Shown in pieces: positions 22,798 to 40,100 of a stretch of DNA of 64,000 nucleotides. Position 1 is the first letter of the stretch. Every line of letters starts with the position of its first letter. The notes under the pieces are model-generated. The model was given only the letters and a program-made list of their open reading frames with translations. It was not told where the DNA came from and did not search any database. Origin of the DNA: Arenibacter algicola (GTDB lineage: Bacteria > Bacteroidota > Bacteroidia > Flavobacteriales > Flavobacteriaceae); contig NZ_JAHKPO010000007.1 in assembly GCF_018860365.1 (NCBI RefSeq), positions 62,001-126,000 on the forward strand. Reading direction: 5' to 3'. The translations under genes were made by a program, and so were the position numbers.

Positions 22798-23967
22798 ATG
22801 AAGTTTATAAAACAGTTTTTTTATGGCCTATCCTTATTAGTGATAGTGATTTTTAGCGTAATGTGTAAAGACGAAAAGAAAAAGGAAGTGACCCAAAAGA
22901 TTGAAAAAGTGAGTATTGAAAAAAACGAATTTGGGACTACGCCAGATGGTGGGAAGGTAGACCGCTATACCCTTAAAAATAGTTCAGGAATGACGGTGGA
23001 TATAATAACCTATGGTGGAATTATTACTTCCATCAAAGTTCCAAACAAAGAGGGTGTTTCGGAAGATGTGGTTTTAGGGTACGATAACCTTGGACAATAC
23101 CTAGAAAGTAGCCCGTATTTTGGTGCAATTATTGGTAGATATGGAAACAGGATAGCCAAAGGAAAATTTTCTTTGGACGGAATGGAATATAGTTTGGCCG
23201 TTAATAATGGAGAAAACCATCTGCATGGAGGTATTAAGGGTTTTGATAAAGTGATCTGGGAGGCATCCGAGGAAACGGGCGAAAATTATGCAGCCTTAAA
23301 ATTGGTTTATTTGAGCAAGGATATGGAAGAAGGCTATCCCGGGAGCTTGAATACCACGGTTACATACACGCTTAAGGAGGACAATTCTTTGGATATGGCC
23401 TATGAGGCAACCACAGATAAGAAAACAATAGTAAACCTTACCAATCACAGTTATTTTAATCTTTCAGGGGATTTTTCCAAAACTGTTCTTGATCAGGTCC
23501 TTAGTTTGAATGCGGATAAATATCTTCCGGTAGACAATACCTTGATCCCCACAGGGGAAATTGCTGATGTGGAAAACACTCCGTTCAATTTTAGAGAACC
23601 AACACCCATCGGAAGCAGGATCGAGGCGGACGATGATCAATTGAAGAAGGGCGGCGGTTATGATCACTGCTGGGTTTTAAACGGTCAGGACAAAGGACAT
23701 CGATTGATTGGAACGGTCTATGATCCAGGAAGTGGCCGGGTTTTGGAAGTGTTCACCACTGAACCAGGGGTACAGTTTTATTCTGGTAATTTTCTGGATG
23801 GCACCCTTCCTGCCAAGCAGGGGGGAACCTATAAAAAAAGAAGTGGCTTTTGTTTGGAGACCCAGCATTATCCAGATTCACCCAATCAATTGGATTTTCC
23901 ATCGGTGGTTCTAAATCCTGGAGAAAAGTATAGCTCAAAAACCACCTTTAAATTCTCTACTAAATAA
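22798..23967 (+). CDS. galM: Aldose 1-epimerase (galactose mutarotase) lipoprotein
   Basis: A 389-residue GalM-family enzyme interconverting alpha and beta anomers of galactose or glucose. The N-terminus has a lipobox-like VMC at about residue 22, so this copy is probably a periplasmic lipoprotein, not cytosolic. Family motifs include YGGIITSIKVPNKEG, GRYGNRIAKGKF, NNGENHLHGG (His), NLTNHSYFNLSG (His), GGGYDHCWVL (Asp) and CLETQHYPDSPNQ (catalytic Glu). Placement at the end of the sulfated-glycan locus fits handling of galactose released outside the cytoplasm. Confidence 0.93.
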   Translation: MKFIKQFFYGLSLLVIVIFSVMCKDEKKKEVTQKIEKVSIEKNEFGTTPDGGKVDRYTLKNSSGMTVDIITYGGIITSIKVPNKEGVSEDVVLGYDNLGQYLESSPYFGAIIGRYGNRIAKGKFSLDGMEYSLAVNNGENHLHGGIKGFDKVIWEASEETGENYAALKLVYLSKDMEEGYPGSLNTTVTYTLKEDNSLDMAYEATTDKKTIVNLTNHSYFNLSGDFSKTVLDQVLSLNADKYLPVDNTLIPTGEIADVENTPFNFREPTPIGSRIEADDDQLKKGGGYDHCWVLNGQDKGHRLIGTVYDPGSGRVLEVFTTEPGVQFYSGNFLDGTLPAKQGGTYKKRSGFCLETQHYPDSPNQLDFPSVVLNPGEKYSSKTTFKFSTK

Positions 23968-24050
23968 GGGAAACATAGCCTTTAAGGCTGTGGTCATTTC
24001 CTATTGTATGGGGTTTTTCACATCCAATCCCTTCATTTTTACGTAAATAG

Positions 24051-24950
24051 GTGTTGTGTATTCAATTTTATTTTAAAAAAATCGTTATACGTAGTAACCC
24101 CAATCTACTAAATGAGGAACGATTGAAAAAATCAATACACACGGCATATATTATATTGATGGTTGCAATTACCGTAGTAGCCACGATTTACTTATTTTAC
24201 ACGGGTTATAGTTACTACAACACCTCTTTGGAGGAACGGTTTTATCATCCCCGCCATGATTGGTTTAAACCAAGTGGTATCTATGGTCAAGGTCTGGGTA
24301 TTCTTGGAACCTTTATGATAGTTTTTGGGGTAGGGATTTATATAGCTAGGAAGCGTTATAATTTTTTGGCAAAACAAATACGGCTAAAATATCTATTGGA
24401 GTTCCATATTTTTCTTTGCACTTTAGGTCCCATATTAATATTGTTTCATACCGCCTTTAAGTTTGGAGGCATAGTCTCCGTTGCTTTTTGGAGTATGGTG
24501 GCTGTTGTTTTGAGTGGCGTTATTGGCCGATTTATTTATAACCAGATTCCTAAGACCATAGAGGGCAGGATAATGAGCATGACCGAAGTCCAGGAAATGA
24601 AAACCGATATGGCGGTAGTACTACATCAAAAATTTCACCTGGAATCGAATACTATAGAGATCGTCACCAATTTGATCAGTGAAGAAAATACCCAGGATAA
24701 GACCAAAAATTTTAGCTATTTGCGTAGGGTGCTTAGCCGAAAGGACCTGCCCAAATCAGAAAGAAATGCCATTTTAAAAATGGTAAAACATGAAATAAAG
24801 CTATCTAAAAAAATTGCCAGATTACAGACGATGCAAAAACTGTTCAAATACTGGCATGTAGTTCACATGCCATTTGCGTTGATCATGCTTATTATTGTCG
24901 TGATCCACGTGGCGGTAACCCTGGCCTTTGGCTATAAATGGATTTTCTGA
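24051..24950 (+). CDS. Membrane protein resembling a b-type cytochrome
   Basis: A 299-residue protein with about five hydrophobic spans. Histidines occur inside or next to the spans in a way that suggests bis-His haem ligation: LLEFHIFLCTL and LILFHTAFKFGG in the central pair, VVHMPFALIML and VVIHVAVTLAF in the last two. A soluble charged segment of about 90 residues lies between the third/fourth and last spans. I cannot name the family with certainty; ferric-reductase-like or quinol-oxidising cytochrome b folds are candidates. The start is uncertain: GTG at 24051 opens the frame and TTG at 24123 is an alternative. Its stop overlaps the next start (TGATG), indicating translational coupling to the ferredoxin/FAD oxidoreductase. 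Confidence 0.72.
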   Translation: MLCIQFYFKKIVIRSNPNLLNEERLKKSIHTAYIILMVAITVVATIYLFYTGYSYYNTSLEERFYHPRHDWFKPSGIYGQGLGILGTFMIVFGVGIYIARKRYNFLAKQIRLKYLLEFHIFLCTLGPILILFHTAFKFGGIVSVAFWSMVAVVLSGVIGRFIYNQIPKTIEGRIMSMTEVQEMKTDMAVVLHQKFHLESNTIEIVTNLISEENTQDKTKNFSYLRRVLSRKDLPKSERNAILKMVKHEIKLSKKIARLQTMQKLFKYWHVVHMPFALIMLIIVVIHVAVTLAFGYKWIF

Positions 24951-26290
24951 TGGAAGAGGTAATGTTGGAACAAATAGTGGTTTATGGGGCTGTATTTTTA
25001 CTTTGCGGCATTATTATCCTGTTCTACCTTCGGCGGAAAAAGGGGAAATCGGCTGTAACAGAAAAAAAAGTGGAGGTGGCCAAGGAAGAAGGTCTTTTCG
25101 AGCCCATTTCGTTATATCCACACATTGATCTTAATCTCTGCATTGGCAGTGGGGCATGTATCACGGCCTGTCCTGAGAAGGACATTTTAGGCATAGTAGA
25201 TGGGGTGGCTACCGTTATAAATACCTCCAATTGTGTAGGTCACGGAGCTTGTTTCCATGCTTGTCCCGTTGAAGCAATTACCTTAAGGATAGGAACAGAA
25301 TCTAGGGGAGTGGAATTGCCACATGTCAGTGAGGATTATGAAACCAACATTAAGGGAATGTATATTGCAGGGGAATTAGGTGGGATGGGCCTGATTAAGA
25401 ATAGTGTGGAACAAGGCCAACAGGCCATGAAGAATATTGCAAGTACAAAAAAACCATCTAAGGAAAATATTTTGGATGTTGTGATAATAGGTGCTGGACC
25501 GGCAGGGATCTCGGCCGCACTTGAAGCAAAAAAACAATGCCTTAGTGCCATTACTTTAGAGCAAGATTCATTGGGAGGGACGGTGTATACCTTTCCGAGA
25601 TCCAAAATTGTTATGACGGCGCCTATGGACCTTCCCCTTTATGGTAAAGTCAAGCTATATGACACTTCGAAGGATGAACTTTTACAACTTTGGAAAAAAG
25701 TAATCAAGGAGTACGACTTGCAAATATTGGAAAATACGAAGGTAGAAAGAATAGTTCCTATAGAAAACGAGACTTTCAAGATAATAACCAACACTGGACA
25801 GGAGTACATTTGTAACCAAGTATTGTTATCCATAGGAAGAAGGGGTACCCCAAGAAAGTTGGGAATCCCAGGTGAAGATTCGCAAAACGTTGCCTACCGC
25901 TTGTTGGAACCAGAGAATATATCAGGAAAAAAAATTATGGTTGTTGGTGGTGGGGACTCCGCAATAGAGTCCGCTTTATTGCTTAAAGAGGCCAATGAAG
26001 TAGTTCTTTCCTATAGAAAAGACCAATTTGCTAGACTCAAACCAAAAAATAAGGAAAAAATAAAGAATTCTATAGAAGATAAATCAATTGATGTAATTTT
26101 TAATTCTAACTTAGTATCTATAAGCGCCAAAAGCGTGCTGTTAACTTCTTCAGAGAGCAGCGAAAGCAAGGAAATTGAAAATGACCTTGTCTATATATTT
26201 GCAGGCGGGGAATTACCTACCAAATTTTTACAGGATGTAGGTATTAAAGTGGCCAAACGATTTGGTCACATTATGAAAAAACACAAATAG
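24950..26290 (+). CDS. Membrane-anchored ferredoxin/FAD/NAD(P) oxidoreductase
   Basis: About 446 residues from the ATG that overlaps the previous stop codon; an upstream in-frame ATG at 24938 is less likely. An N-terminal span (IVVYGAVFLLCGIIILFYL) anchors the protein. Residues about 60-115 hold a two-cluster ferredoxin domain (CIGSGACITAC with a following Pro, and CVGHGACFHAC). Then come a thioredoxin-reductase-like FAD fold with VVIIGAGPAGIS near residue 178 and a second dinucleotide site MVVGGGDSAIESA near 330. No CxxC redox pair of true thioredoxin reductase is seen. It would move electrons between NAD(P)H, FAD and two [4Fe-4S] clusters at the inner membrane, plausibly exchanging with the cytochrome-b-like neighbour. 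The electron direction cannot be read from sequence. Confidence 0.86.
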   Translation: MEEVMLEQIVVYGAVFLLCGIIILFYLRRKKGKSAVTEKKVEVAKEEGLFEPISLYPHIDLNLCIGSGACITACPEKDILGIVDGVATVINTSNCVGHGACFHACPVEAITLRIGTESRGVELPHVSEDYETNIKGMYIAGELGGMGLIKNSVEQGQQAMKNIASTKKPSKENILDVVIIGAGPAGISAALEAKKQCLSAITLEQDSLGGTVYTFPRSKIVMTAPMDLPLYGKVKLYDTSKDELLQLWKKVIKEYDLQILENTKVERIVPIENETFKIITNTGQEYICNQVLLSIGRRGTPRKLGIPGEDSQNVAYRLLEPENISGKKIMVVGGGDSAIESALLLKEANEVVLSYRKDQFARLKPKNKEKIKNSIEDKSIDVIFNSNLVSISAKSVLLTSSESSESKEIENDLVYIFAGGELPTKFLQDVGIKVAKRFGHIMKKHK

Positions 26291-26295
26291 ATGTT

Positions 26296-28134
26296 TTGCA
26301 TGGCATATTAAAACATATTATTCTTCTGGCATTTTTGTCATTTACTTGTGGATATGGGCAAATATCCCCTGGTGATCTTTCACAATCCCATGCCAAATTG
26401 GAAGGGATGACCAACTGTACACTTTGTCATGAACTTGGCAATAAGGTTTCTGATAAAAAATGTTTGGAATGTCATAAGGATATCCAATCCCTAATCAATA
26501 AAAAAAGCGGTTATCATGCAAATGCAGATGTAATTAAGCAAGACTGCTTTGAATGTCATAGTGAACATCATGGACGTAAATTCGACATGGTGCGTTTTAA
26601 TGAAGATGCCTTTGATCATGACCTTACAGGATACGAATTGGAAGGAAAGCATGAGTCGGTAGATTGTAAAAAATGTCATGTTTCGGAAAACATTGCGGAT
26701 AAGGAATTACAAAAGCGCGCAAAAACATTTCTCGGATTGGATGAAAAATGTCTCTCCTGCCATGAGGATTATCATCAGAATACTTTATCGAATACCTGTG
26801 TGGATTGCCACAATATGGAAGCCTTTAAACCTGCGCCAAAATTTGATCATGACAAGGCCGATTTCCAGTTAAAGGGAGAGCATATAAATGTGGATTGCAT
26901 AGAATGCCATAAAATGACCACTAAGAATGGTCAGGAATTTCGGGAATTTACGGATATCCCCTTTGCCAATTGCGTTTCATGCCATGAAGACCCTCACAAG
27001 GGGCAATTGGAAGGTGCCTGTGTACAATGTCATACCGAAACTGCGTTCAGTGACTTTAAGGGGCTAGGTAATTTTGACCACAACAAAACGGACTTCACTT
27101 TAAACGGTAAACATAAGGACATTGACTGTTTTAGCTGTCATTCATCAACAAGCGAACCACTCCGTGTTTTTCAGGATAGGAAGAATATCGATGAAAACAA
27201 CTGTGTAAAATGTCATAAGGATGAACACGATGGTAAATTTGGTACGGATTGCGTAAAATGCCATCGTGAAAGTAGCTTTTTGTCCCTGCGTTCCATGGAT
27301 TTCTTTGACCATACCAAAACAGATTACCCATTGGAGGGCGAACATGTACAGGTAGATTGTAAGGAATGCCATAAAAAGCGATTTACAACTCCCATAGATT
27401 TCTCGGCATGCAATAATTGTCATAAGGATTATCATAGGGGAGAATTTATGGCAAATGGCGTTTCCCCGGATTGTGTGGAATGCCATGTTCTGGAACAAGG
27501 CTTTGATTATAGCCTTTTCACTTTAGAGGAACACCAAAAGACCAATTTTCCATTGGAAGGAGCACACACTGCAACTCCTTGTTTTGCCTGCCATGTTAGC
27601 GAAAAAGATAAACGCTGGACATTCCGTAACATGGGTTCCGAATGCGTAGATTGCCATACGGATGTTCATGAGGGCTACATTAGTGAGAAATTCTATCCGG
27701 ATAATGAATGTGCCATGTGCCATGTTAATGATGCTTGGACATCGGTTGATTTTGATCATAACAAAACCGATTGGCCATTAACCGGAAAACATACCGAAGT
27801 AAGTTGTAGAGAGTGTCATTTCAACGAATTAAGTGATATTAAAACACCTAGGGAACAAAAATTCGCTACCTTGGAAACAGACTGTGTTACCTGTCATGAA
27901 AATGTACACGGCGATACCTTTAGTGTTGATGGAATAACGAATTGTTCCGAGTGTCATGTAACGAACAGTTGGTTCCCAAAACGCTTTAACCACGATTTAA
28001 CGAACTTTCCTTTAGAGGGACAACACGCCAAAATTGCTTGTAACTCCTGTCATGAAGTTGCCAATGCAAAAGGTGAAATTGAAGTAGTGTACAAAATACA
28101 AAAGTTCAGATGTATAGACTGTCACTTGCAATAA
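26296..28134 (+). CDS. Giant multihaem c-type cytochrome, 23 CxxCH motifs
   Basis: A 612-residue exported protein (signal peptide ending near CGYGQ) with 23 haem-binding CxxCH motifs, beginning with CTLCH and ending with CIDCH. A module occurs seven times: an FDHxKTDFxLxGxH-type segment, four residues, then CxxCH. Its spare histidines are good candidates for distal haem ligands, giving bis-His, c3-type haems. No catalytic domain was recognised, so an electron-wire role is more likely than an enzyme role. The start is TTG at 26296, 5 bp after the previous stop, because no in-frame ATG precedes the signal peptide. The last 25 bp overlap the next gene. Haem attachment probably depends on the CcsBA protein encoded convergently at 32196. 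Confidence 0.93.
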   Translation: MHGILKHIILLAFLSFTCGYGQISPGDLSQSHAKLEGMTNCTLCHELGNKVSDKKCLECHKDIQSLINKKSGYHANADVIKQDCFECHSEHHGRKFDMVRFNEDAFDHDLTGYELEGKHESVDCKKCHVSENIADKELQKRAKTFLGLDEKCLSCHEDYHQNTLSNTCVDCHNMEAFKPAPKFDHDKADFQLKGEHINVDCIECHKMTTKNGQEFREFTDIPFANCVSCHEDPHKGQLEGACVQCHTETAFSDFKGLGNFDHNKTDFTLNGKHKDIDCFSCHSSTSEPLRVFQDRKNIDENNCVKCHKDEHDGKFGTDCVKCHRESSFLSLRSMDFFDHTKTDYPLEGEHVQVDCKECHKKRFTTPIDFSACNNCHKDYHRGEFMANGVSPDCVECHVLEQGFDYSLFTLEEHQKTNFPLEGAHTATPCFACHVSEKDKRWTFRNMGSECVDCHTDVHEGYISEKFYPDNECAMCHVNDAWTSVDFDHNKTDWPLTGKHTEVSCRECHFNELSDIKTPREQKFATLETDCVTCHENVHGDTFSVDGITNCSECHVTNSWFPKRFNHDLTNFPLEGQHAKIACNSCHEVANAKGEIEVVYKIQKFRCIDCHLQ

Positions 28135-29777
28135 TTGTATTTCTAGGTTTTTGGCCCCTGTTTGCCCAATCTCCCCATGGTGAGGAGTTAAGGATGGATT
28201 GTGCAAAATGCCATAATCCTTCAAGTTGGACCATCAATTATCGAACCGTCCAATTTGACCATGACAAGACAGATTTTCAATTGGAGGGAACCCATGCCTT
28301 AACCGATTGTAAACTTTGCCATTCCTCATTAGTATTTAGTGAGGCCCCAATGGATTGTGCTTCTTGCCATGTGGACATACATAGTCAATCTGTAGGCAAT
28401 GATTGCGTTCGCTGTCATACTTCCGAGACTTGGTTGGTAGATAATATTCCGGAATTGCACGAAGAAAACGGTTTCCCTTTAATTGGTTCCCACAGTAATT
28501 TAAGTTGTGTGGAATGCCATACATCCGAGACTACTTTGCGTTTTGATCGCGTAGGCAATGAGTGTATTAGTTGCCATAGGGATGATTACGCTGCTACCCA
28601 GAGCCCGAATCACGAAACTGGAGGATTTTCTACCAATTGTATTGAATGTCATAGTCCTCTAGGATTTGGTTGGGATTCGGAAAGTATAAACCACGACTTT
28701 TTCCCATTGACACAAGGCCATGATATACAGGATTGCGCCCAATGCCATACCACAGGGAATTATTCCGATGCCTCTCCGGATTGCGTGTCTTGTCACCAAG
28801 ATGAATATGCAGGTACCCAAAATCCAAATCACGGTACTTCAGGCTTTTCCACGGACTGTGTTTCCTGCCACACTACTAATCCAGGATGGACGCCAGCGGT
28901 AATAAACCACGACTTTTTCCCATTGACACAAGGCCATGATATACAGGATTGTGCCCAATGCCATACCACGACCAACTATGCTGATGCCTCTCCGGATTGC
29001 GTTTCCTGCCACCAAGATGATTATGCAGGAACCCAAAACCCCAATCACGGTACTTCAGGCTTTTCCACGGACTGTGTTTCCTGCCATAGCACCAATCCAG
29101 GATGGACGCCAGCGGTAATAAATCACGACTTTTTCCCATTGGCACAAGGCCATGATTTGCAGGATTGTACCCAGTGCCATACCACGGCCAACTATGCGGA
29201 TGCGTCACCGGATTGTGTTTCCTGTCACCAAGATGATTATGCGGGTACACAAAATCCAAATCACGGTACATCAGGCTTTTCTACAGACTGTGTTTCCTGC
29301 CATACTACCAATCCAGGATGGACGCCAGCGGTAATAAACCACGACTTTTTCCCATTGACACAAGGCCATGATTTACAGGATTGCGCCCAGTGTCATACCA
29401 CGGCAAATTATGCGGATGCGTCGCCGGATTGTGTTTCCTGCCACCAAGATGATTATGACCAAACCAATAATCCAAACCATATTGCGGCTAATTTTCCAAC
29501 GGATTGCGTTGCTTGCCACACAACAAACCCAAATTGGACACCAGCGACCTTTGATCACGACGCGCAATATTTTCCCATATATACGGGAAAACATAGAGAA
29601 GGAGAAGCATGGGACAATTGTGTAGAATGCCATGCAAATCCAGCCAGTTATGCAGATTTCACATGTTTCACTTGCCATTCCAGACCAGATATGGATGATA
29701 AGCATTCCGAAATGAATGGTTATGCCTACGTGAGCAGTGTTTGCCTACAATGCCATCCCGATGGTACTAAGGATTAA
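28110..29777 (+). CDS. Giant multihaem c-type cytochrome with tandem 72-residue repeats, 22 CxxCH motifs
   Basis: A 555-residue exported protein (signal peptide MYRLSLAIIVFLGFWPLFAQ) with 22 CxxCH motifs. The N-terminal part shares the FDHDKTDFQLEGTH module with the upstream cytochrome. Residues about 158-446 are four tandem units of 72-73 residues. Each runs from D(D/E)YAxTQxPNH through CVSCH, NHDFFPL and CAQCH to CVSCHQ, giving three haems per unit; a diverged fifth unit follows. The C-terminus ends in a CLQCH motif close to the stop. It overlaps the previous gene by 25 bp and is followed after 2 bp by the beta-barrel gene. An extracellular or periplasmic electron-wire role is inferred. Confidence 0.93.
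   Translation: MYRLSLAIIVFLGFWPLFAQSPHGEELRMDCAKCHNPSSWTINYRTVQFDHDKTDFQLEGTHALTDCKLCHSSLVFSEAPMDCASCHVDIHSQSVGNDCVRCHTSETWLVDNIPELHEENGFPLIGSHSNLSCVECHTSETTLRFDRVGNECISCHRDDYAATQSPNHETGGFSTNCIECHSPLGFGWDSESINHDFFPLTQGHDIQDCAQCHTTGNYSDASPDCVSCHQDEYAGTQNPNHGTSGFSTDCVSCHTTNPGWTPAVINHDFFPLTQGHDIQDCAQCHTTTNYADASPDCVSCHQDDYAGTQNPNHGTSGFSTDCVSCHSTNPGWTPAVINHDFFPLAQGHDLQDCTQCHTTANYADASPDCVSCHQDDYAGTQNPNHGTSGFSTDCVSCHTTNPGWTPAVINHDFFPLTQGHDLQDCAQCHTTANYADASPDCVSCHQDDYDQTNNPNHIAANFPTDCVACHTTNPNWTPATFDHDAQYFPIYTGKHREGEAWDNCVECHANPASYADFTCFTCHSRPDMDDKHSEMNGYAYVSSVCLQCHPDGTKD
28581..29447 (+). repeat. Four tandem 216-219 bp repeats inside the multihaem cytochrome gene
   Basis: Unit boundaries are at 28581, 28800, 29016, 29232 and 29448: one unit of 219 bp, then three of 216 bp. 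The last three units are near-identical at DNA level, differing mostly at synonymous sites; the first is more diverged and a degenerate fifth follows. Each unit adds three haem-binding motifs, so copy number directly sets haem number. Confidence 0.93.
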
Positions 29778-29779
29778 TT

Positions 29780-31369
29780 ATGAACTTTAAATATAGTTTA
29801 ATACTAGGATTTATAATATTGACCTACAGCGGCTATGGGCAAGACAATGATGAAATACTTACTGGACAGATTTCATTTTTAACTTCCAATAACATATATG
29901 TACAATTTGATACTACCTCCAAGATCAGCCCTGGTGATACCCTACATTTATCCAATACCAATTCCGCTTGTCTATTATTGAAAAGTAAATCTTCAAGTTC
30001 TTGCGTGTGTTCAATTATCAATGATTGTGAAATAAAAAAAGGGGACAAGGTATATTTTAATTATTCCAATAAAGTAGAGGCTCAGCCCATTGAGAAACCC
30101 GTTGCTAAAACAGTATCCTTAGAGCGAGAACAAAACGTTGAGGAAGTGGAACCCTTGTATACGGAAAAAATAAGGGGAAGGCTATCCGCATCTACTTATA
30201 GCACTATATCCAGTGACAGGGAGGATAGACACAGGGCTATGTCCAGTTTTTCCATAAATGCCAATCATATTAATGATTCCAAATTTTCCTTTAATTCCTA
30301 TTTAAATTATAGATACATTTTAGATAATTCAGAAAGTTCAAGCCTTCAAAAAAATAGTATTCTTCGGGTTTATAACTTGGGTCTTATCTATGACATAACT
30401 CCTACATTGTCCGCCACTATTGGTAGAAATATTAACCCTAAAATATCATCTGTGGGTGCCATTGATGGTCTGCAGGTGGAGAAATACTTTGGTAAGAATA
30501 ATTATGCCGGAGCCATTTTAGGCTTTAGGCCCGACATTTATGATTATGGGTTTAATTCTAATTTGCTTCAATTTGGAGGTTATGTGGGAAAGGCTCTCAA
30601 TAAGGAAAATCTCTACATGCAGACTACCATGGGATTTATAGAACAGCGCAATGGGGGTGAAACGGATAGACGTTATGCCTATTTTCAACATTCGAGCACT
30701 TTCTCAAAAAACCTTAACCTTTTTTCCTCATTAGAGGTTGATCTATACAGGAAGTTAAATGACGAAACGAGTTATGGTTTTCAGCTTACCAATTTATATG
30801 TTGCTGCCAGATATAGGTTTAATAGAAAGATAAATATGATGCTTTCTTATGATTCCAGGAAGCGGATATTATACTATGAAACCTATCAAACGGAAATTGA
30901 ACGATTATTGGACGATGATATAGCCAGACAGGGTATACGCGCTCGACTTAATATAAGGCCGTTTAAAAACATATTGGCGGGGGCAAGTTATAGCAAAAGG
31001 TTCCAGAATGATTCTGAGAACAAATCGGATAATATTTATGGTTATTTAACTTTGTCAAGAATACCTGAAGTTGGCGGAAGATTATCCCTTACCTTTAATA
31101 TGAATAGTTCCAATTATTTGGATAGTAAAATTGCTTCTGTTAGGCATTCAAGGGAATTTTTCAACGGTAGGTTAAATGCAGACCTGTACTATAGATTGGT
31201 ATTTTATAATTATACAAGTAGTCCGGAGTCTTTAACGCAAAACTATTTTGGTTCCAGTATGTCTTATAATATAAATCGGAAGTTGCTCTTTAGCCTCTCT
31301 GGGGAACTGACTATGTATAATGACGAAAACAATATTAGAATCTATGCTAGGATTGTACAACGCTTTTAA
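29780..31369 (+). CDS. Outer-membrane beta-barrel protein of the cytochrome cassette
   Basis: A 529-residue protein with a signal peptide (cleavage near YSGYGQ). Residues about 25-90 form a small domain with four cysteines near SACLL and CVCSIINDC. From about residue 130 to the end the sequence alternates hydrophobic and polar residues in beta-strand style (FSFNSYLNYRYIL, AGAILGFRPDIY, MMLSYDSRKRILY) and ends with IRIYARIVQRF, a terminal aromatic typical of outer-membrane barrels. It starts 2 bp after the multihaem cytochrome gene. The position suggests the outer-membrane sleeve of a porin-cytochrome conduit, but there is no recognised homology to MtrB-type porins. Confidence 0.75.
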   Translation: MNFKYSLILGFIILTYSGYGQDNDEILTGQISFLTSNNIYVQFDTTSKISPGDTLHLSNTNSACLLLKSKSSSSCVCSIINDCEIKKGDKVYFNYSNKVEAQPIEKPVAKTVSLEREQNVEEVEPLYTEKIRGRLSASTYSTISSDREDRHRAMSSFSINANHINDSKFSFNSYLNYRYILDNSESSSLQKNSILRVYNLGLIYDITPTLSATIGRNINPKISSVGAIDGLQVEKYFGKNNYAGAILGFRPDIYDYGFNSNLLQFGGYVGKALNKENLYMQTTMGFIEQRNGGETDRRYAYFQHSSTFSKNLNLFSSLEVDLYRKLNDETSYGFQLTNLYVAARYRFNRKINMMLSYDSRKRILYYETYQTEIERLLDDDIARQGIRARLNIRPFKNILAGASYSKRFQNDSENKSDNIYGYLTLSRIPEVGGRLSLTFNMNSSNYLDSKIASVRHSREFFNGRLNADLYYRLVFYNYTSSPESLTQNYFGSSMSYNINRKLLFSLSGELTMYNDENNIRIYARIVQRF

Positions 31370-31381
31370 AAATGAATAGAA

Positions 31382-32185
31382 ATGGATACAATGTATAAAT
31401 ATGCTTTACTCACCATAACTCTGTTGGTGATGTTCAGCTGCAATAACGGACCAAAGGTAATAAGCCCCTCAACGGAAGATGGGAACACCCAAACGAAAAG
31501 CGGAATTTTTTCAGTTGATCCAGAAACTCAAGTGACCCCCAATAACAATGCTGCAATCAGCAATGATTTTCACAAGGTGGTAGTAAATGAAGTTCTGCCT
31601 ACCTCAAGGTATGTTTATCTCCGGGTTACGGAAGGCGGGGAGAAATTTTGGATCGCTACCAGAAAACAGGAGGTTGAGAAAGGCGAAGTCTATTTTTACA
31701 GAAACGGACTCCTTAAAACTAATTTTGAAAGTAAGGAATATAACAAGGTATTCGATACCATATATTTAATTTCTAATTTGGTGGCGGAAGATCATGCCAA
31801 ACATGTTGGTAATTTGCCGCCCAATACTGCCAAAACAGTTAAGACAAATACGCAGAAAGAGGACATACCCACACATACTAACAAAGTAGTGGAACACAAG
31901 GGTACTCTTAAAATAGCAGAACTGGTCAAAGATTTTAAAAAGTATGAAGGACATACGGTTCAAATAAGTGGTAAATGTGTAAAATCCAATGCAAATATTA
32001 TGGGGCGAAATTGGATACATATCCAAGACGGCAGCAAAAACGATTTTGATCTGGTGGTAACCTCCAATACCTTTGTTCCTGAGGGTGAAGTGGTCACTTT
32101 CCGCGCAGTTGTGGGACTTAATAGGGATTTTGGTGCAGGTTATAAATATGACCTCATTTTAGAAAATGGAACCTTGGTTCAATAG
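31382..32185 (+). CDS. Lipoprotein with C-terminal OB-fold-like domain
   Basis: A 267-residue lipoprotein (lipobox MFSC) starting at ATG 31382, or at 31391 for a tighter signal peptide. A first domain (about 55-130) contains VLPTSRYVYLRVTEGGEKFW. After a polar Thr/Lys-rich linker, the C-terminal 95 residues have an OB-fold-like pattern (GTLKIAELVKDFKKYEGHTV, then GRNWIHIQDG and FRAVVGLNRDFGAGYKYD). Repeats of this fold accompany multihaem cytochrome genes in some bacteria, where they may bind haem protein or substrate; here the role is unassigned. It ends the plus-strand cassette, 10 bp before the convergent CcsBA gene. Confidence 0.72.
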   Translation: MDTMYKYALLTITLLVMFSCNNGPKVISPSTEDGNTQTKSGIFSVDPETQVTPNNNAAISNDFHKVVVNEVLPTSRYVYLRVTEGGEKFWIATRKQEVEKGEVYFYRNGLLKTNFESKEYNKVFDTIYLISNLVAEDHAKHVGNLPPNTAKTVKTNTQKEDIPTHTNKVVEHKGTLKIAELVKDFKKYEGHTVQISGKCVKSNANIMGRNWIHIQDGSKNDFDLVVTSNTFVPEGEVVTFRAVVGLNRDFGAGYKYDLILENGTLVQ

Positions 32186-32195
32186 GCAGTTATCC

Positions 32196-35100
32196 CTAAG
32201 AAATAATCTTGAATTTTCGCTTTTTAAAATAGGCTATAGTACTAATTATGACAATTGAAACAACCACAATGTATACCCATTGGGGTATGGGGACCGGATC
32301 TCCTGTGGCATAGGAATGTAGTCCGGACAGGTAATAATTTACTCCATAGTAGGTCATAATTACGGAGGCCATTCCAAAAATTGTAGCTAAATTATACGCA
32401 AAGAGCCCAGTTAATTTAGGTATGATTCTCATATGTAAAATAAATGCATAAACCAGTATTGTTACCAATGCCCAGGTTTCTTTAGCATCCCATCCCCAGT
32501 ATCGTCCCCATGATTCGTTGGCCCAAACGCCACCCAAATAGGTGCCAATACTCACCATGAACAAACCGCCAACCAAGGTCAGCTCACTAATGTAGGTCAT
32601 TTCTTGTACGATGCGCTTTATTCTTATTTTATTGGACTCCCTTAGGAATATCATCAATATTAAATTGATCAATCCAATAATTGCGCCCAGCATCAGGAAT
32701 CCGTAACTACCGGCCTCCAAGGATACGTGTATAGTTAGCCAATAAGATTTTAAAACGGGAACCAAAGGGGTAATCTCGGGATCCAGAAAACTCAGGGTAG
32801 AAACAAAAAGTATGGTCGCAGCAAGCACCATTGTTGCTGCCAAACCACCAAACGATTTTCTGGTAAAAAGTATTCCGGCCAAGGTTGAGGTCCAGGCAAT
32901 ATATATCATGGATTCATAACCATTGCTCCAAGGGGCCCGGCCCGAAACGTACCATCTCAATCCAAGGCCAATGGTATGAAGGACAAAGCCTAAAACGATT
33001 AAAGAAAATAAAACGAGATATATTTTTTTTAATTGAATGTTCGGTTTGAAAACGGATAGGAACAAAAAGAACAATAGCGCAATCCCCAATATGATATACA
33101 AGCCTGCCAAACGTGTAAATACATTCATTTTATTGAGTAGTATTTCGGCTTTAATTTTTGTTGTGGATGGTAAAACAGCACCTCCATTTTTATTTTGGTA
33201 CTCCTTTAACTCTTGTAAAAGATGTCCAGCTTGGGAGTAGTCGTTGGTTGTAACTGCTTTTTGTAGTGCAGCGGTGTAGGCACTAAAAAATTTGTCGGCC
33301 ACGCTGTCGTGATTATGACCGTCATGATTGGAATGTGCATGGGAAGAAGTTGAAACCCAAGTATTGTTGGGGTCATTTGGGATGGGGACCAATTTAAGAA
33401 GACTGCCGGAAAATACCATGCTCAGGATATTGACCTTTTCATCTATTTTTAAAAGCTCCTTTTCATAGACTCCCCGATCTATGTTATCCAAACCATATAC
33501 CCTCCTCACTTCATCATGCAGCTTGTATTCCCCATTGGTGGCAAAAAAATCTTTATAGGATGCGTATTTCCCACCAACGCTTAATTTCTTTTTAATGTCA
33601 TTGTGCTCTCCCAATTTTAATACCGGCGCCCCATACCATTCCTGTTTGTTTATGAACATACTCAGAATAATCTGATCGGCGCTCAGCCCAAACAGGCTTT
33701 CCTTTCTGGCCAATTTCCGCATTATTTCACGTGAGAGGGTATGCATAGGTTTCATTCGGCCTTTAAAATCCTGAACGGCAAGTTTGCTAAAGGCATCAGC
33801 GTGTTCAATATTTACGGCGTGAGCTGCATAAGCTTTGTTTTCTGTTGATTGGGCAAATGAAAATGTAGAAGTTAAAAACAGGGCTATTACAAAAGTGGCG
33901 CTCTTGGCCCTTAATTTTTTAATTTTTTGGCTTACTTGATAAAATCGCGTTTTCCTACTGAAAAGCGTCCAAATCATTCCAATGGTCAATAGGGCATATC
34001 CCAAGTAAGAAATCCATGTGCCCCAAAAATCACTATTTACACTTAAATAGGTGCCCTTTTCATCCTTGTCAAAAGAGGACTGAAAAAACCGAAAGCCGTC
34101 GTAGTCAAGAATGTTGTTCATGAAAATTCTATAGTCGAAGGTTTCATTTTTTCTTTTGTCTATTAGGGTAACTTCACTGGCGTAGGAAGAGGCACTATTG
34201 GTACCTGGGTATTTTTCTAGGATAAATTCGTTCAACTTTATCTGAAAGGGTAATGTTGTTTCCTTGGATCCATAAGAAATGGATAAGCTTAAATCATCAA
34301 AATTCAGCACTTCCGGTCTTCCTTCCATTCCCCTACTTCCGTAAATGTAAACAGGGGTTGTATTACCATTTACAGTAACATCCATCAAAAGTGCGGTAAG
34401 GCTTTCGTTTCTCACCTTAGGGTCTTCGGACTCGATTCGCACAACTCCACTTTTGCTAAAGTCGGAAAAAACAAAACTGTTTACCCCATCAGTGTAAAGG
34501 GAACGCAGTATTAACGGTCTATAGGATCCAGAGGGATATATTGTGTCCCTCTTTTGAGTTGCCATTACAGTTTGTGTTAAGGTTTTGCTAGAGCTAAATA
34601 CCAGCGAATCCTTTCGATATATAATGTTTATAGCGTCGGCTAAAGGTGTTTCCTTGAAGTTGTAAATTACATTGCCTATACGCTTGGTTTGTCCGGCTGT
34701 GATAAAATATTCTTCCCGACCATTGGATCCGGCAATAACAATTTTTAATGTTGGTTTTCCTTCAATGCTTTCGCTCAGCACTTGTTTGGGGTTGGCAATA
34801 AACTCCTTTACTTTGAAATCTATCAATGCGTTGTCTACCAAATAGGATTCATGCCAAGCGTTGTTGCCCAAGGCTGCAAATAGTACAGGCTCATCAAAAT
34901 TGTAGGTCTGATTGTTTTTGTTTACTACAAATTTTAAATGAGTATTTGATGATAGGAAAGTATTTGCAGTGTTGTTTTCTCGTATGTGCATTACACCCTC
35001 ATAACCAAAATACCGCGTAACACCCGCTCCTATCAAAATGATAATTATTGCTCCATGAAATAGAAGAAGGGACCATTTCTTTTGCGGAATCATGCGAAAC

Positions 35101-35321
35101 CTAAAAATATTTGTGATTATGGTTATTCCAAATAAAGCGAGAAGAAGTTCAAACCACCACGATTTAAAAATAAGTTTTTGGGCGGCGCTGGTCCCATAAT
35201 CATTTTCAATAAAGGTAGCTAGGCCTATGGCGGCTGCAAAAAGAATCAAATAAAGTCCAGCTGCCTTGGTATTGAAGAAAGGAGTGAGCAACTTTTCAAT
35301 TTTTACAATAACGTTTTTCAT
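32196..35321 (-). CDS. ccsBA: Fused ResB-CcsA cytochrome c synthase (System II)
   Basis: About 1041 residues, joining ResB (CcsB) and CcsA parts into a complete System II haem-delivery and ligation enzyme. The N-terminal ResB part has membrane spans (AAGLYLILFAAAIGLATFIE, LLLFHGAIIIILIGAGV) and a long periplasmic domain. A further span precedes a periplasmic stretch with a His-rich loop (SHAHSNHDGHNHD, about residue 657). The C-terminal CcsA part has several spans and the haem-binding WWD motif (WGRYWGWDAKETW, about residue 935). The start at 35321 is chosen because a TAnnTTTG box lies just upstream; the longer frame from 35345 would begin inside that promoter. Convergent with the multihaem operon, it probably matures its 45 haem sites. 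Confidence 0.93.
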   Translation of the reverse strand: MKNVIVKIEKLLTPFFNTKAAGLYLILFAAAIGLATFIENDYGTSAAQKLIFKSWWFELLLALFGITIITNIFRFRMIPQKKWSLLLFHGAIIIILIGAGVTRYFGYEGVMHIRENNTANTFLSSNTHLKFVVNKNNQTYNFDEPVLFAALGNNAWHESYLVDNALIDFKVKEFIANPKQVLSESIEGKPTLKIVIAGSNGREEYFITAGQTKRIGNVIYNFKETPLADAINIIYRKDSLVFSSSKTLTQTVMATQKRDTIYPSGSYRPLILRSLYTDGVNSFVFSDFSKSGVVRIESEDPKVRNESLTALLMDVTVNGNTTPVYIYGSRGMEGRPEVLNFDDLSLSISYGSKETTLPFQIKLNEFILEKYPGTNSASSYASEVTLIDKRKNETFDYRIFMNNILDYDGFRFFQSSFDKDEKGTYLSVNSDFWGTWISYLGYALLTIGMIWTLFSRKTRFYQVSQKIKKLRAKSATFVIALFLTSTFSFAQSTENKAYAAHAVNIEHADAFSKLAVQDFKGRMKPMHTLSREIMRKLARKESLFGLSADQIILSMFINKQEWYGAPVLKLGEHNDIKKKLSVGGKYASYKDFFATNGEYKLHDEVRRVYGLDNIDRGVYEKELLKIDEKVNILSMVFSGSLLKLVPIPNDPNNTWVSTSSHAHSNHDGHNHDSVADKFFSAYTAALQKAVTTNDYSQAGHLLQELKEYQNKNGGAVLPSTTKIKAEILLNKMNVFTRLAGLYIILGIALLFFLFLSVFKPNIQLKKIYLVLFSLIVLGFVLHTIGLGLRWYVSGRAPWSNGYESMIYIAWTSTLAGILFTRKSFGGLAATMVLAATILFVSTLSFLDPEITPLVPVLKSYWLTIHVSLEAGSYGFLMLGAIIGLINLILMIFLRESNKIRIKRIVQEMTYISELTLVGGLFMVSIGTYLGGVWANESWGRYWGWDAKETWALVTILVYAFILHMRIIPKLTGLFAYNLATIFGMASVIMTYYGVNYYLSGLHSYATGDPVPIPQWVYIVVVSIVIISTIAYFKKRKFKIIS

Positions 35322-35342
35322 TGAATATGTGTCGGGGCATAT

Positions 35343-35350
35343 CAAAGTTA
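35343..35350 (-). promoter_or_regulatory. Bacteroidetes-type -7 box (TAACTTTG) for ccsBA
   Basis: On the minus strand TAACTTTG matches TAnnTTTG, and transcription would begin about 15 nt ahead of the ATG at 35321. It helps decide the ccsBA start. Confidence 0.5.
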
Positions 35351-35694
35351 AACTAATTATTTTAAAAATATGGAAACCAATGAGTTGGTCGAACGCCTAA
35401 CGGATTAAAGTAAAAAAAATCAATGTAACCAATAAATTATCTTTGGGGTAACCTACCTTGGTAAATCCCTAATGCTATGGTCTTAATTGATTATTTGATG
35501 TTGTTTTGGGTTGGTCAATGGCTTATTTGCCAACGGTAGAACTGCTTAATAAAATTACCTTGAAGTTTCAGTGAATTGATGAGGTCCTGACCATATTAGG
35601 GTCACTTTTTAGGATGGAGATTTAGGCTATATGCCAATAATGTAATTAGCTTTATTTATTAAATAGGGTTGATTTAGGGAATAAAAAGGAAATA

Positions 35695-35731
35695 AAAAGG
35701 GGAAGTGCATAAAGGCATTCTTCCCCTTTAA
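35695..35731. terminator. Hairpin terminator after the small membrane-protein gene
   Basis: AAAGGGGAAG pairs with CTTCCCCTTT across a roughly 13-nt loop. A-rich sequence on its left becomes a T-run on the minus strand, immediately 3' of the 40-residue ORF. It is also usable on the plus strand. Confidence 0.6.
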
Positions 35732-35738
35732 TAATTAT

Positions 35739-35861
35739 TTAATAGGTCCTTCTTTTAACTATTTTGTAGGTAATTAACGCTAAGGCTACAAGTAGACAAA
35801 ACACAATAGAAATGAAAGGGTTATTGTCTATAAGCTTTACGATTGGGGCTACTATTTCCAT
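35739..35861 (-). CDS. Small single-span membrane protein, 40 residues
   Basis: A short minus-strand ORF encoding 40 residues: MEIVAPIVKLIDNNPF, then a hydrophobic span (ISIVFCLLVALALITY) and a basic tail KIVKRRTY. The topology would be N-out, positive-inside. A strong hairpin terminator starts 8 bp after the stop, which supports expression as a separate gene. No family is recognised, and no clear promoter box was found upstream. Confidence 0.5.
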   Translation of the reverse strand: MEIVAPIVKLIDNNPFISIVFCLLVALALITYKIVKRRTY

Positions 35862-36184: not shown

Positions 36185-37072
36185 TTAAAACACAAACCTC
36201 AGGAACAGCTCATTGGTGTTCTTGGCACTAGCCAGTTCACTTCTGGTACTTACCTCATAGGCAAATCCTAGGGTAAGTCGTTTCTGGATACTCAGGTTAA
36301 CCAGGCCCGCAAAGGCCGAGTCGGTCCTGTAACTTGCCCCCAGTTCAAAGTCGTTGTTAAAGGAGAGCATGGTATTGAAATCGACCGACAACGGTGCCCC
36401 GCTTACTTGACGTAACATGGCCGAAGGTTTCAACATTAGGTTGCCGTTGTTGCCAAGGGGCAGATCATAGCCCACTGTGGCGTAAAGGTGGGGCTTGGCC
36501 ACGGTGGCCGTGGCCGTACCGTTGCTGTTCTCCGCTCTGTCCGTGCTCAGCATCCTGGGCATGGCCAAAGAAAGGAACAGCGCCTCCCGTTTAAAGAGGA
36601 TTCCCGCCCCTATATTGGGGTTGAAATCGGAGATCGATGTTATGCTGGGATCCGACTGAATATTATAGGTCTCCAGGCCAGCCGTATTTACGGAATAGGA
36701 ATTACCGCCCGCCTTTAGCCCTAGGTACAGTTCCATTTTTTCTGACAACTGGAGTTTGTAGGAGTAGTCGATTCCAATAAAGGTCTGGCTCTCCACAAAG
36801 GTCTTGTCGTTCATTACGGATACCCCAAGGCCGGTCTTTTTTCCCAGTCGGGTGCCAAAGGAGACCACTATGGTCCTTGGCGCCTCTTCCACTCCCGTCC
36901 ATTGTTGGCGGAAGCTGGAAGTAATGGCCGTCTTCCCCTCTGGGGAGACATAGGCTGGATTATAGGCGTTCATATGGTAACGATAATTGGTCAATAGCCC
37001 TTCCTGTTGGGCGAACAAGCTGCCCCCCGCTATAAAAATTAGGCCTAAAATAATTTTATTTAATATCTTCAT
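36185..37072 (-). CDS. PorP/SprF-family type IX secretion-associated outer-membrane protein
   Basis: About 295 residues from the ATG at 37072, which opens a clean signal peptide (MKILNKIILGLIFIAGGSLF, cleavage near AQQ); the frame extends 60 bp further up without a better start. The conserved opening LLTNYRYHMNAYNPAYVSPE and FRQQWTG are hallmarks of PorP/SprF proteins, and the rest is a 14-strand-like barrel ending LFLRFVF. Proteins of this family act as partners for T9SS cargo with a type B C-terminal domain. Its upstream operon partner (37108) carries exactly such a domain, with 35 bp between the genes, so it likely serves export or surface anchoring of that protein. Confidence 0.93.
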   Translation of the reverse strand: MKILNKIILGLIFIAGGSLFAQQEGLLTNYRYHMNAYNPAYVSPEGKTAITSSFRQQWTGVEEAPRTIVVSFGTRLGKKTGLGVSVMNDKTFVESQTFIGIDYSYKLQLSEKMELYLGLKAGGNSYSVNTAGLETYNIQSDPSITSISDFNPNIGAGILFKREALFLSLAMPRMLSTDRAENSNGTATATVAKPHLYATVGYDLPLGNNGNLMLKPSAMLRQVSGAPLSVDFNTMLSFNNDFELGASYRTDSAFAGLVNLSIQKRLTLGFAYEVSTRSELASAKNTNELFLRFVF

Positions 37073-37107
37073 TTTATTGATTTCTTTTACTGTAAATAAT
37101 AGTTTGG

Positions 37108-40100
37108 TTAATGTGAAGTGATATATAGCCATCCGTCCTGGTCTACTTTGCCATCACCCTCATAATCGATCTGGAAGTAATAGGAGCTTGCATCCGGAAG
37201 TTTAGCTCCAAGGTCTTTGTAATGGCCATCCCACGTATTCTGGTAGTTCTTGGCCGAGAACACCTCCTTGCCCCAACTGTTAAATACACGAACAATGTTA
37301 TTGGGGTAGTTCTCTAATCCGTAGATCGTCCAGGTATCGTTTATACCGTCCCCATTGGGAGTAAAGGCCTGGGATATTTTCACCGCATTTTCTTCAACCT
37401 CATCAATATCGCCCCCTGAGGTTTCACCGCCCACAGTTTCATCTTCGTCAGCTTCTTTTTGACTATCGGAACAACCTTCTGCATCCACGGTTTCTCCGGC
37501 CGGGGTGTCTGAACAATTATCCTCGGTATCGGCAACGCCGTCCCCGTCATCATCGGCATCGGCATTGTTGCCCGTGCCATCCCCATCGGTATCGGTATCC
37601 TCATTGGCATCCAATGGGAAAGCGTCCTCGGTATCCGGGGTACCGTCGTTGTCATCATCGGTATCTTCCCCATCTGCAGTACCGTCACCGTCCGTATCCT
37701 TTTGGCTATCGGCACATCCGTTGGCATCCACGGCCTCGTCTTCCGGGGAATCCGGGCATTGGTCCTGGGCATCGCTAACCCCGTCAAAATCAGTATCCTT
37801 TTGACTGTCCGAACAGCCTTCCGCATCTACTTCTTCTCCTAACGGAGTTTCAGGACAATTATCCTGGTCATCGGCCACGCCGTCACCATCGGTATCTTTT
37901 TGACTTGCAGAACAACCTTTTGCGTCAACTATCTCACCCGTTGGTGTAACTGGACACATATCCATAGCATCGTTCACACCATCGTCATCATCATCGGTGT
38001 CGGCATTATCACCCGTACCATCGCCATCGGTGTCGGTATCCTCGTTTGCATCCAATGGGAAAGCGTCTTCCGCATCCGGGGTACCGTCATTGTCATTATC
38101 GGTGTCCGCATTGTCACCCGTACCATCACCATCGGTATCGGTATCTTCATTTTCGTCCAATGGGAAAGCATCTTCCGAATCCGGGGTGCCATCATTATCG
38201 GTATCTTTTTGGGAATCGGAACAGCCATTGGCATCTACGGTTTCACCTGCAGGGGTGTCTGCACAGTTATCCATATCATCTGACACACCGTCTTCATCCG
38301 AATCGACAATGATACAGCTTAGACCAGCATCTGTAATCGTCCAACCATAGGTGTCAATTAAAGATTGTCTTGCTGTTGCTCCTTCACAGTAGATACTATT
38401 ACCGCCTTCGAATGTGATTCCTGTTGGTATTTGTGTTTCCCCTGCGGCTGTATCTAAAGTGTTCCAGCCTATTAAGGTGTTGTCGTAATTCTCCTGTGAT
38501 AAGCTAGTGGCATCGAACATTTCCTCCATATTCGTTACATTACTAATATCCCAACTACCTAAATCTTGGTCAAAAGCGGTTGTCCCTTGAAACAATCTGG
38601 ACATATTCGTTACATTGCTTACATCCCAACCACTGATGTCTTGATCAAAAGCTACAGCATTAGAAAACAAACCACGCATGTTAGTCGCATTACTAACATC
38701 CCAACCACTAATATTTTGGTTAAAAACAGTTGTTCGTGAGAACATATAATTCATCTCAGAAACATTACCGACATCCCAATCGCTAATATCTTGATTAAAA
38801 GCATCAGTGCTATAAAACATAGACGACATATCGGTCACGTTGCTCACATTCCAACCACTAATATCTCCATTAAATTTAGTAGCCCTATTGAACATGGATT
38901 CCATGTTAGTTACATTACTTACATCCCAGCCGTCAATATTTTGTTTAAATCCTGATGCCTCTTGAAACATATAACTCATATTGGTCACATTGCTCACTTC
39001 CCAACCGCTGATATCTTGGTCAAAATTTGAAGCACCGCTGAACATAGATTCCATATTGGTTACACTGCTTACATTCCATCCAGCAATATTTTGATTAAAA
39101 GCTGTTGCATTAGAAAACATAAAAGCCATATCGGGCACATTGCTCATTTCCCAACCGCTAATATCCTGATTAAAAACTGCTGCCTCATTAAACATGGCAC
39201 GCATATTATTCACATTACTTACATTCCATCTACCAATGTCTTGATTAAAAGCTGTTGCTCCGTTAAACATAGCAGGCATGTTGGTTACATTGCTTACATC
39301 CCAATCACTGATATCCTGATTAAAAACTGTTGCATTTTGGAACATATAACCCATATCGGTCACATTGCTCACATCCCAATCACTGATATCTCCATTAAAT
39401 TTAGAGGCGTAGGAGAACATACTATTCATATTATTAACCAAAGAAAGATCTGGCACATCATTGGCATTATATTCTAAATTTGAACAATTTATAAAACTAC
39501 CGGACATACTTTTCCATTGTTGCGTTCCCCATTGTTCTATGGATACTATTTCTTGTGACCCGTTAGTTTTCGCGAAATTAATTTGTGGGAAGGTACCCGT
39601 AATAGTTACAGTATAAATGCCCTGTTCAGCATAAGTATGACTTACATCACCATTATAAGTTGTATTATCCTCAGAACCATCACCCCAGTCTACTGTATAA
39701 TTATAATAAAACGATGAGCTTGTAGGAATTGTAATCGATTGGTTCGGGTTATCCGTTTTCCAAGTGGTAATAAAAGGTAAAGAACAATCCTCGCCACCAT
39801 CGGTAATGGTCCAGCCATGCGTAACTTCTAAATTTTGTCTTGCAGTTGCTCCTGAACAATATATACTATTACCACCATTAAAAGTAATATCTGTTGGTAT
39901 TTGGGTCTCTCCTGCAGCGGTATCCAATGTGTTCCAGCCAATTAGGGTGTCGTCATAATTTGCAGTGGAAAGTCCTGCATTATTGAACATATCGTACATC
40001 CCGGTAACTTGGCCAATATCCCAAGTACTTAAATCCTGATCAAAAGAAGTTGCTCCTTGAAACATTCCTTGACCTATTCGAAACCCTGGTGGCATCATAG

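Follow-up and report, generated by a model that had tools for sequence, protein, structure and literature searches.

A conserved seven-gene block in Arenibacter algicola and other Bacteroidota: a candidate electron conduit across the cell envelope

In a 64,000-nucleotide stretch of DNA from Arenibacter algicola (contig NZ_JAHKPO010000007.1, positions 62,001 to 126,000; called the window below) we identified a block of seven genes which probably forms a self-contained, horizontally mobile electron conduit that would lead outward across the cell envelope. All seven genes lie within an insertion of about 11.7 kb (24006..35669) that is missing downstream of galM in related genomes. Six of them are contiguous on the plus strand and encode, in this order, a b-type cytochrome (cytb), an oxidoreductase with iron-sulphur (Fe-S), flavin adenine dinucleotide (FAD) and nicotinamide nucleotide (NAD(P)) sites, two multihaem cytochromes (mhcA and mhcB), an outer-membrane beta-barrel and a lipoprotein; the seventh, on the minus strand, is convergent and encodes the cytochrome c synthase CcsBA. 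An initial annotation of this DNA had proposed the six open reading frames (ORFs) and the convergent CcsBA gene, and all were found at their places, with neighbour distances of -25 to +12 bp. This predicted architecture is well supported.

Gene content and haem sites of the block

The two cytochromes account for most of the cofactors. The gene mhcA (26296..28134, plus strand) encodes a putative exported cytochrome c with 23 CxxCH motifs and mhcB (28110..29777, plus strand) one with 22; a six-frame scan of the window reproduced both numbers of the initial annotation. The 45 sites are not due to chance, because only two other stop-to-stop frames of more than 60 amino acids in the window contain any CxxCH, with one motif each. 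Pfam matches in the block comprise C7/C3-type cytochromes, flavoprotein domains, ferredoxin-like motifs and CcsBA. As had been proposed before, neither mhcA nor mhcB showed a catalytic domain, and neither protein matched a PDB sequence at 0.01. Signal sequences of both cytochromes were judged by inspection, a hydrophobic segment above the threshold being present only in mhcB. A search of the genus with PF14522 missed the window's own cytochromes and was not used.

To compare haem numbers we collected 193 multihaem ORFs with at least eight motifs, 165 of them complete, leaving out loci L004 and L005, which repeat L012 and L017. The counts are approximate, since short-read assemblies can collapse near-identical units. 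Proteins of the mhcA class show closely similar haem spacing and near-constant length in the genes compared: 59 complete ORFs have 23 haems and 26 have 20, and the mhcA of L147 and that of L155 have 19 haems each. In an alignment of 69 sequences, whose members were chosen for 20 or 23 motifs, 23 histidines outside the motifs are kept wherever the position exists, and the window's mhcA has 23 haems. With one extra conserved histidine per haem, no haem of mhcA seems to be free for catalysis, and all are predicted to be bis-His.

The architecture of mhcB consists of caps around a three-haem unit of 72 residues. The motif spacing is mostly 36, 16, 16, 34, 19, 25 at the N-terminus and near 38, 15, 26 at the C-terminus, with repeats of about 32, 16, 25 between them; part of the N-terminal set is missing in the forms with 10 haems. 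In the window a tandem array to which the initial annotation did not point (28686..29457, plus strand), with a 216-nt unit (72 amino acids, three haems) is present in 3.6 copies with 90% matches. Complete mhcB genes carry 10 to 94 haems, and the numbers within Arenibacter are 22, 25 and 16. After removal of the 85 ORFs with 20 or 23 motifs, 73 of the 80 remaining complete ORFs had a motif number equal to 1 modulo 3; the pool does not consist of mhcB alone, as L147 and L155 each add a 19-motif mhcA. The seven exceptions were L031 (42 motifs), L157 (38), L049 (12, beside a second partial cytb), L039 (12 and 11), L152 (14) and L156 (14). The two ORFs of L039 add up to 23 motifs and the one of L152 lies beside a 5-motif piece, so that both loci apparently contain a split mhcA, and the 14-motif ORF of L156 has irregular spacing and is a different cytochrome. 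Three genes that ran off the end of a stretch after 90, 88 and 87 motifs have 94, 91 and 88 when complete, and the barrel gene directly follows each of them. Two Saprospirales records and one Bacteroidota metagenome-assembled genome (L072, L087, L089 / L206, L207, L208) carry two mhcB genes, one with 13 haems and the other, directly before the barrel gene, with 94, 91 or 88. DNA tandem arrays were detected in 47 of 106 genes outside the class with 20 or 23 motifs, the one in L056 being a 24-nt repeat; inside this class 1 of 85 genes has an array, an 8-nt repeat. Because tandem arrays are common outside this class and nearly absent inside it, the gene comparison indicates that mhcB changes its length by duplication of near-identical units and that mhcA hardly changes.

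The gene following mhcB (29780..31369, plus strand) encodes a predicted outer-membrane beta-barrel. The AlphaFold2 model, based on 44 sequences (pLDDT 82.8, pTM 0.63), shows 22 long strands (residues 130-528) and a small N-terminal beta domain (about residues 26-94); it has no plug of the size found in TonB receptors. Structure prediction thus places an outer-membrane barrel next to the genes of the multihaem cytochromes. The next gene (31382..32185, plus strand) encodes a putative lipoprotein, with a lipobox-like FSC followed by NN (judged by inspection) and a GW-like domain (PF13457, 24 bits versus a cut-off of 21), where the initial annotation had assigned an OB-fold.

The CcsBA gene extends from 32196 to 35345 on the minus strand when a TTG start is used and to 35321 with the ATG start of the initial annotation. 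Like a System II synthase, it combines ResB (PF05140, 68.3 bits) and Cytochrom_C_asm (PF01578, 128.2 bits) in one chain and reaches 171.8 bits with TIGR03144, below the cut-off of 187.6. It is a second copy in this genome. The additional copy occurs in 3 of 18 genomes of the genus, the same three that contain the barrel, and the other CcsBA is present in all 18; second CcsBA and barrel are present or absent together in 18 of 18 genomes. The CcsBA therefore looks dedicated to the block, as the initial annotation had suspected.

On the inner-membrane side, cytb (24123..24950, plus strand) encodes a putative five-helix di-haem membrane protein of the b type. About five hydrophobic regions were counted (overlapping segments merged by eye), and six histidines are invariant in 40 sequences. 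The two histidines of each pair, H119/H133 and H272/H286, are separated by 14 residues, a pattern of two bis-His haems b. The protein contains no CxxCH and matches Pfam b561 only below the cut-off. The gene was present as annotated, and only its start has probably to be moved: the ORF is open from GTG 24051, but TTG 24123 is the more likely start, because GAGGA is located just upstream and the resulting 275 amino acids are the commonest length among the relatives found (26/82). Outside Bacteroidota the search covered a plasmid collection. There, homologues of cytb on Acetobacter and Methylophaga plasmids (25% and 24% identity) keep H119/H133 and H272/H286 and sit between an FAD/NAD/2Fe-2S oxidoreductase and a C7-type cytochrome. 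On the Pseudomonadota plasmids L196 and L197 this small redox module of three genes is found near metal-resistance genes.

The oxidoreductase (24938..26290, plus strand) is predicted to be membrane-anchored by one N-terminal hydrophobic helix. It contains two Fe-S motifs with three cysteines each and has Rossmann domains for FAD and NAD(P) with the YpdA/TrxR/FNR2 fold. Among solved structures its sequence is closest to YpdA/Bdr, thioredoxin reductase and ferredoxin-NADP reductase; the scores stay below the equivalog cut-offs of YpdA (164.3 of 339.9 bits) and TrxR (96.8 of 343.45), and inspection revealed no CxxC pair in the FAD half. The initial annotation had assigned two [4Fe-4S] sites to this protein, a reading that has to be corrected. 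In 83 aligned sequences the position of the second cysteine is occupied by Ser (80), Thr (2) or Val (1) in motif 1 and by His in all 83 in motif 2. The protein thus lacks the two canonical CxxCxxCxxxCP motifs; Pfam Fer4_10 nonetheless scores above its cut-off. Eight relatives with the flavoprotein gene after the barrel gene kept the cysteine in motif 1 and also have His in motif 2. As the second cysteine is replaced in both motifs, the alignment points to three-iron or Ser/His-ligated clusters.

The region upstream of cytb was also inspected. FNR-type sites were found at 20 of 75 loci compared with a mean of 23.0 in shuffled sequences, which gives no support for such a regulation. A GTAGGGTA-like element occurs as an 8-mer within 250 bp upstream at 13 of 75 loci versus 0.2 in shuffles, and related 7-mers were present within 200 bp at 18 of 75 loci (for example L035, L043 and L048). 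The element was not found in the window; it is possibly the site of a regulator.

Conservation, distribution and mobility

With the flavoprotein as query, named genome records yielded at least 499 relatives, of which the best 80 loci were kept. Their titles come from Flavobacteriaceae, Saprospiraceae, Cyclobacteriaceae, Chitinophagales and other Bacteroidota, with a few called only 'bacterium'. Adjacency was counted in these 80 named loci wherever the stretch leaves room for the gene in question. The flavoprotein gene is preceded by cytb in 75 of 77 loci and followed by a multihaem gene in 70 of 74 and by a second one in 63 of 63; the barrel comes next in 40 of 43 loci, then the lipoprotein in 35 of 36, and 28 of 29 loci contain a CcsBA. 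Both cytb misses, the three barrel misses and one of the four multihaem misses (L065) turned out to be truly adjacent genes which overlap through the choice of the start (L048, L050, L043, L053, L075 and L065). Further misses are L083, L038 and L057, where the gene arrangement differs as described below; for the misses at L041 and L023 no explanation was found.

A second survey sampled the phylum. At E <= 1e-20, cytb was detected in 40 of 395 sampled genomes and 33 of 171 genera, and by kinship label 38 of these 40 genomes lie outside the class of the window. Among 20 fetched survey genomes, two multihaem genes were present beside cytb in 19, the flavoprotein in 18 and the barrel in 17, two of the three barrel misses being stretches of about 10 kb that end at a contig end. 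In eight loci (L156-L163) the flavoprotein gene is placed after the barrel gene, and a lipoprotein or CcsBA match within the stretch was seen only in L145. Conservation as a unit, named as a test in the initial annotation, was thus found as a recurring gene order across Bacteroidota loci. Judged from these comparisons, the block is a conserved module whose genes recur as a unit in many Bacteroidota; it is Bacteroidota-wide.

Within the genus the block is also present in Arenibacter echinorum (L012) and Arenibacter sp. F20364 (L017). The barrel was detected in 3 of 60 relatives, all three among the 18 genomes of the genus. Between genome G000 and the other two block-bearing genomes the CcsBA of the block is 77-78% identical and the housekeeping CcsBA 91-94%, and the DNA flanking the block gave no matches in the stretches compared. 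In all five block-less genomes fetched, out of 15 (L190-L194), both flanks of the block lie together: homology ends at 23967-24005 and begins again at 35670-35749, two points that only 54-206 bp separate in the relative. The simplest reading is that the block is an insertion with its own CcsBA and that the seven-gene cassette was acquired separately; loss of the block in the other Arenibacter genomes combined with relocation would be less likely. On plasmid pEMTOL02 of Emticicia oligotrophica, genes for ccsA, cytb, the flavoprotein, cytochromes with 23 and 40 haems, the barrel and a GW lipoprotein stand in a row.

Some features around the block were noted in addition. A PorP gene follows the insertion site in L190 and L191, and in L192-L194 the homology next jumps to about 43.4 kb. 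The window contains at 36185-41193 a PorP/SprF gene and a neighbour of 1361 amino acids which matches relatives repetitively; the closest PorP copies, in G010, G016 and G017, have a stop inside the match. At 20239-21708 a stop codon splits a sulfatase-like reading frame into two ORFs.

Proposed electron path and alternatives

Each step of the path that we propose is derived from gene order and cofactors. Cytosolic NAD(P)H would first reduce the FAD of the membrane-anchored oxidoreductase. The two Fe-S sites of this protein would then relay the electrons to cytb, whose two haems b may in addition exchange electrons with quinol. Cytb would carry them across the inner membrane to mhcA, where 20 or 23 bis-His haems would form a chain of near-constant length that spans the periplasm. 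From mhcA the electrons would be handed to mhcB, the constant part of which would be located in or at the 22-strand barrel, and the variable array of three-haem modules would extend the wire outward to an extracellular acceptor such as minerals, humics or other cells. The CcsBA of the block would attach the haems, and the lipoprotein would be an accessory. NAD(P)H as donor is best supported here by the observation that two different families of pyridine-nucleotide oxidoreductases adjoin the same cytb family; the context on the Pseudomonadota plasmids suggests for this family a role in electron transfer from NAD(P)H to a periplasmic cytochrome. The initial annotation had already interpreted the genes as an envelope conduit. 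Conservation of the block, the barrel prediction and the apparently dedicated CcsBA speak for this interpretation and its Fe-S part was revised; conduction across the outer membrane, its direction and the partner are what we infer.

A more far-reaching version of this proposal, which we offer only tentatively, is that mhcB might be a length-tunable haem nanowire made of a single polypeptide. Recombination between the 216-nt units would add or remove three haems at a time, so that the reach beyond the outer membrane could evolve and perhaps vary between strains, with mhcA as a fixed periplasmic ruler. The wire would be driven from NAD(P)H via the Ser/His-substituted Fe-S sites and would have spread among Bacteroidota as a seven-gene cassette together with its own haem-attachment enzyme.

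Several observations weigh against an outward conduit. No measurement of conduit function was found for any member, and many of the named hosts are marine heterotrophs described as aerobic. Neither Pfam nor NCBIfam has a family that matches the barrel at E <= 0.1, and no match to MtrB/PioB (PF11854) was obtained for the barrel at this threshold or in any of the 18 genus genomes. With the same Pfam and NCBIfam result and the 22-strand model, the protein did not prove to be an unrelated transporter or porin, an outcome that the initial annotation had named as refuting. Foldseek revealed a generic barrel likeness only (best match the FimD usher, query TM <=0.47 among the 50 matches listed), and the model does not fix the place of the N-terminal domain relative to the lumen. 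The mhcA model is poor (pLDDT 74.7, pTM 0.32), and its lack of a fold match in Foldseek says little with such a weak model; likewise, the absence of MtrB and of the nanowire folds OmcS/OmcE/OmcZ from the matches listed excludes nothing. For mhcB neither a surface anchor nor a C-terminal domain of the type IX secretion system was evident by inspection. At the level of the loci, other genes lie between flavoprotein and cytochromes in L083 and L038, two full-length flavoprotein ORFs follow each other near a contig end in L057, and in L151 a relative of cytb occurs without the rest of the block beside a 459-amino-acid protein with two CxxCH. In favour of the conduit, sequence distances between loci are correlated among cytb, flavoprotein, mhcA, barrel, lipoprotein and CcsBA when these are taken two at a time (r of 0.69-0.90; 0/999 permutations for each of the 15 pairs), but these values have no species-tree baseline behind them.

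Among the alternatives, the same conduit working inward survives best, and we regard it as unlikely. Extracellular donors (reduced humics, Fe(II) or other cells) would feed mhcB and then mhcA, and the electrons would reach quinone or NAD(P)+, for example to supply the respiration of nitrous oxide or oxygen. The parts are formally reversible, and homologues of CbcL, MtoC and MtrH have been proposed to work both ways in the part of PMC6295460 that was available. An internal electron sink probably exists, because a match to the NosZ domain (propeller) was found in 18 of 18 genus genomes; the block, however, is present in only three of them, so that NosZ does not track it. It also counts against inward flow that the YpdA/TrxR/FNR2 group, to which the flavoprotein is nearest, oxidises NADPH, and that none of the seven genes in the insertion was recognised as a lithotrophy gene.

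It is still less probable that mhcA and mhcB act as a haem-rich capacitor which stores electrons in the periplasm or at the surface during redox shifts, with the barrel only assembling or exporting them. The extreme and variable haem numbers would suit storage, and 'capacitor-like' roles were suggested for secreted many-haem proteins, many from Saprospiraceae, in the portion consulted of PMC11495043; however, storage leaves the near-constant length of mhcA and the constant company of cytb, flavoprotein and barrel unexplained. Slightly weaker again is the idea that the block feeds an extracellular or outer-membrane reductase of a soluble substrate which is encoded elsewhere, the barrel being the channel for this substrate. 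Marine glycan degraders meet many soluble acceptors and the lipoprotein could be a binding partner, but no reductase was noticed recurring beside the block, most mapped neighbours being without annotation. A known terminal reductase partner of periplasmic cytochromes, named in the initial annotation as a refuting outcome, was not found as far as NrfA (PF02335), the only reductase searched, is concerned: it was above the cut-off in 0 of 18 genus genomes and sub-threshold in 1 of 18. It is very improbable that the redox relay is confined to the periplasm and that the barrel is an unrelated porin which travels with it: no direct sign of a crossing of the outer membrane was obtained, but the barrel is kept beside the cytochromes in 40 of 43 of the best 80 loci and in 17 of 20 survey genomes.

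If the outward conduit exists as proposed, extracellular electron exchange would be a widespread and horizontally spread trait of Bacteroidota, given cytb in 33 of 171 sampled genera. Bacteroidota are better known for the degradation of glycans and proteins, and polymer degraders would gain an electron outlet in oxygen-poor sediment, sludge or biofilm. The natural length series of mhcB beside an otherwise constant module could be used to test conduction against wire length, and cultured hosts are available with Arenibacter echinorum, Yeosuana, Lutibacter oceani, Ulvibacter antarcticus, Hanstruepera and Emticicia oligotrophica.

Comparison with known systems

In the open-access full-text literature (preprints and supplements lie outside this scope) no published description of this operon was found. 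The parts seen of PMC13374861, PMC12480950 and PMC8446621 contain nothing on it, and in the main text of the large scan PMC11475568, as far as it was accessible, the string 'Bacteroid' occurs 0 times. Conduits have been described in Ignavibacteria (PMC7399161, consulted in part).

Two reports on Bacteroidota come close. In the sections seen of PMC11495043, secreted proteins of this phylum with more than 100 haem motifs are described, many of the large ones in Saprospiraceae, and a function in extracellular transfer or as capacitors is speculated. They resemble the block in the phylum, the very high haem numbers and possible extracellular electron transfer, and probably overlap with mhcB; unlike here, these sections describe neither an operon with partners nor a modular repeat or a cytochrome of fixed length beside it. 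The anode-enriched Bacteroidetes_1 cluster consists, according to the excerpt of PMC8258643 at hand, of seven genes for six multihaem cytochromes and one barrel. It shares with the block the phylum and the combination of beta-barrel and multihaem cytochromes, but no flavoprotein is named in this excerpt.

The Pseudomonadota plasmid module is similar in having a homologous cytb with four haem histidines between a pyridine-nucleotide oxidoreductase and a C7-type cytochrome. It differs in the families of the oxidoreductases, in a cytochrome of 253-254 amino acids and in the proximity of metal-resistance genes, and no barrel is annotated in the stretch seen except for copper resistance protein B in L196. 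The quinol oxidases CbcL, MtoC and MtrH likewise use a b-type membrane cytochrome to feed multihaem cytochromes; in the block, by contrast, the b-type and c-type parts are separate genes and an FAD/NAD(P)/Fe-S protein is added (compared with the part seen of PMC6295460).

The closest functional analogy is offered by the Mtr and Pcc conduits (MtrCAB; OmbB-OmaB-OmcB), and the block would work in a similar manner. The barrel of the block is outside the MtrB/PioB family (the OmbB and ExtB barrels were not compared), and its 20 or 23 haems plus a variable number differ from the 8 plus 12 of Pcc clusters (PMC4245776) and the 10 plus 10 of Mtr (PMC8415449), as given in the passages seen of these sources. 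The inner-membrane entry is also different, with a putative di-haem b protein together with a pyridine-nucleotide flavoprotein, and the block often has a CcsBA of its own. Common to both is a barrel encoded beside multihaem cytochromes, which in the block are putatively exported, often together with genes of inner-membrane cytochromes.

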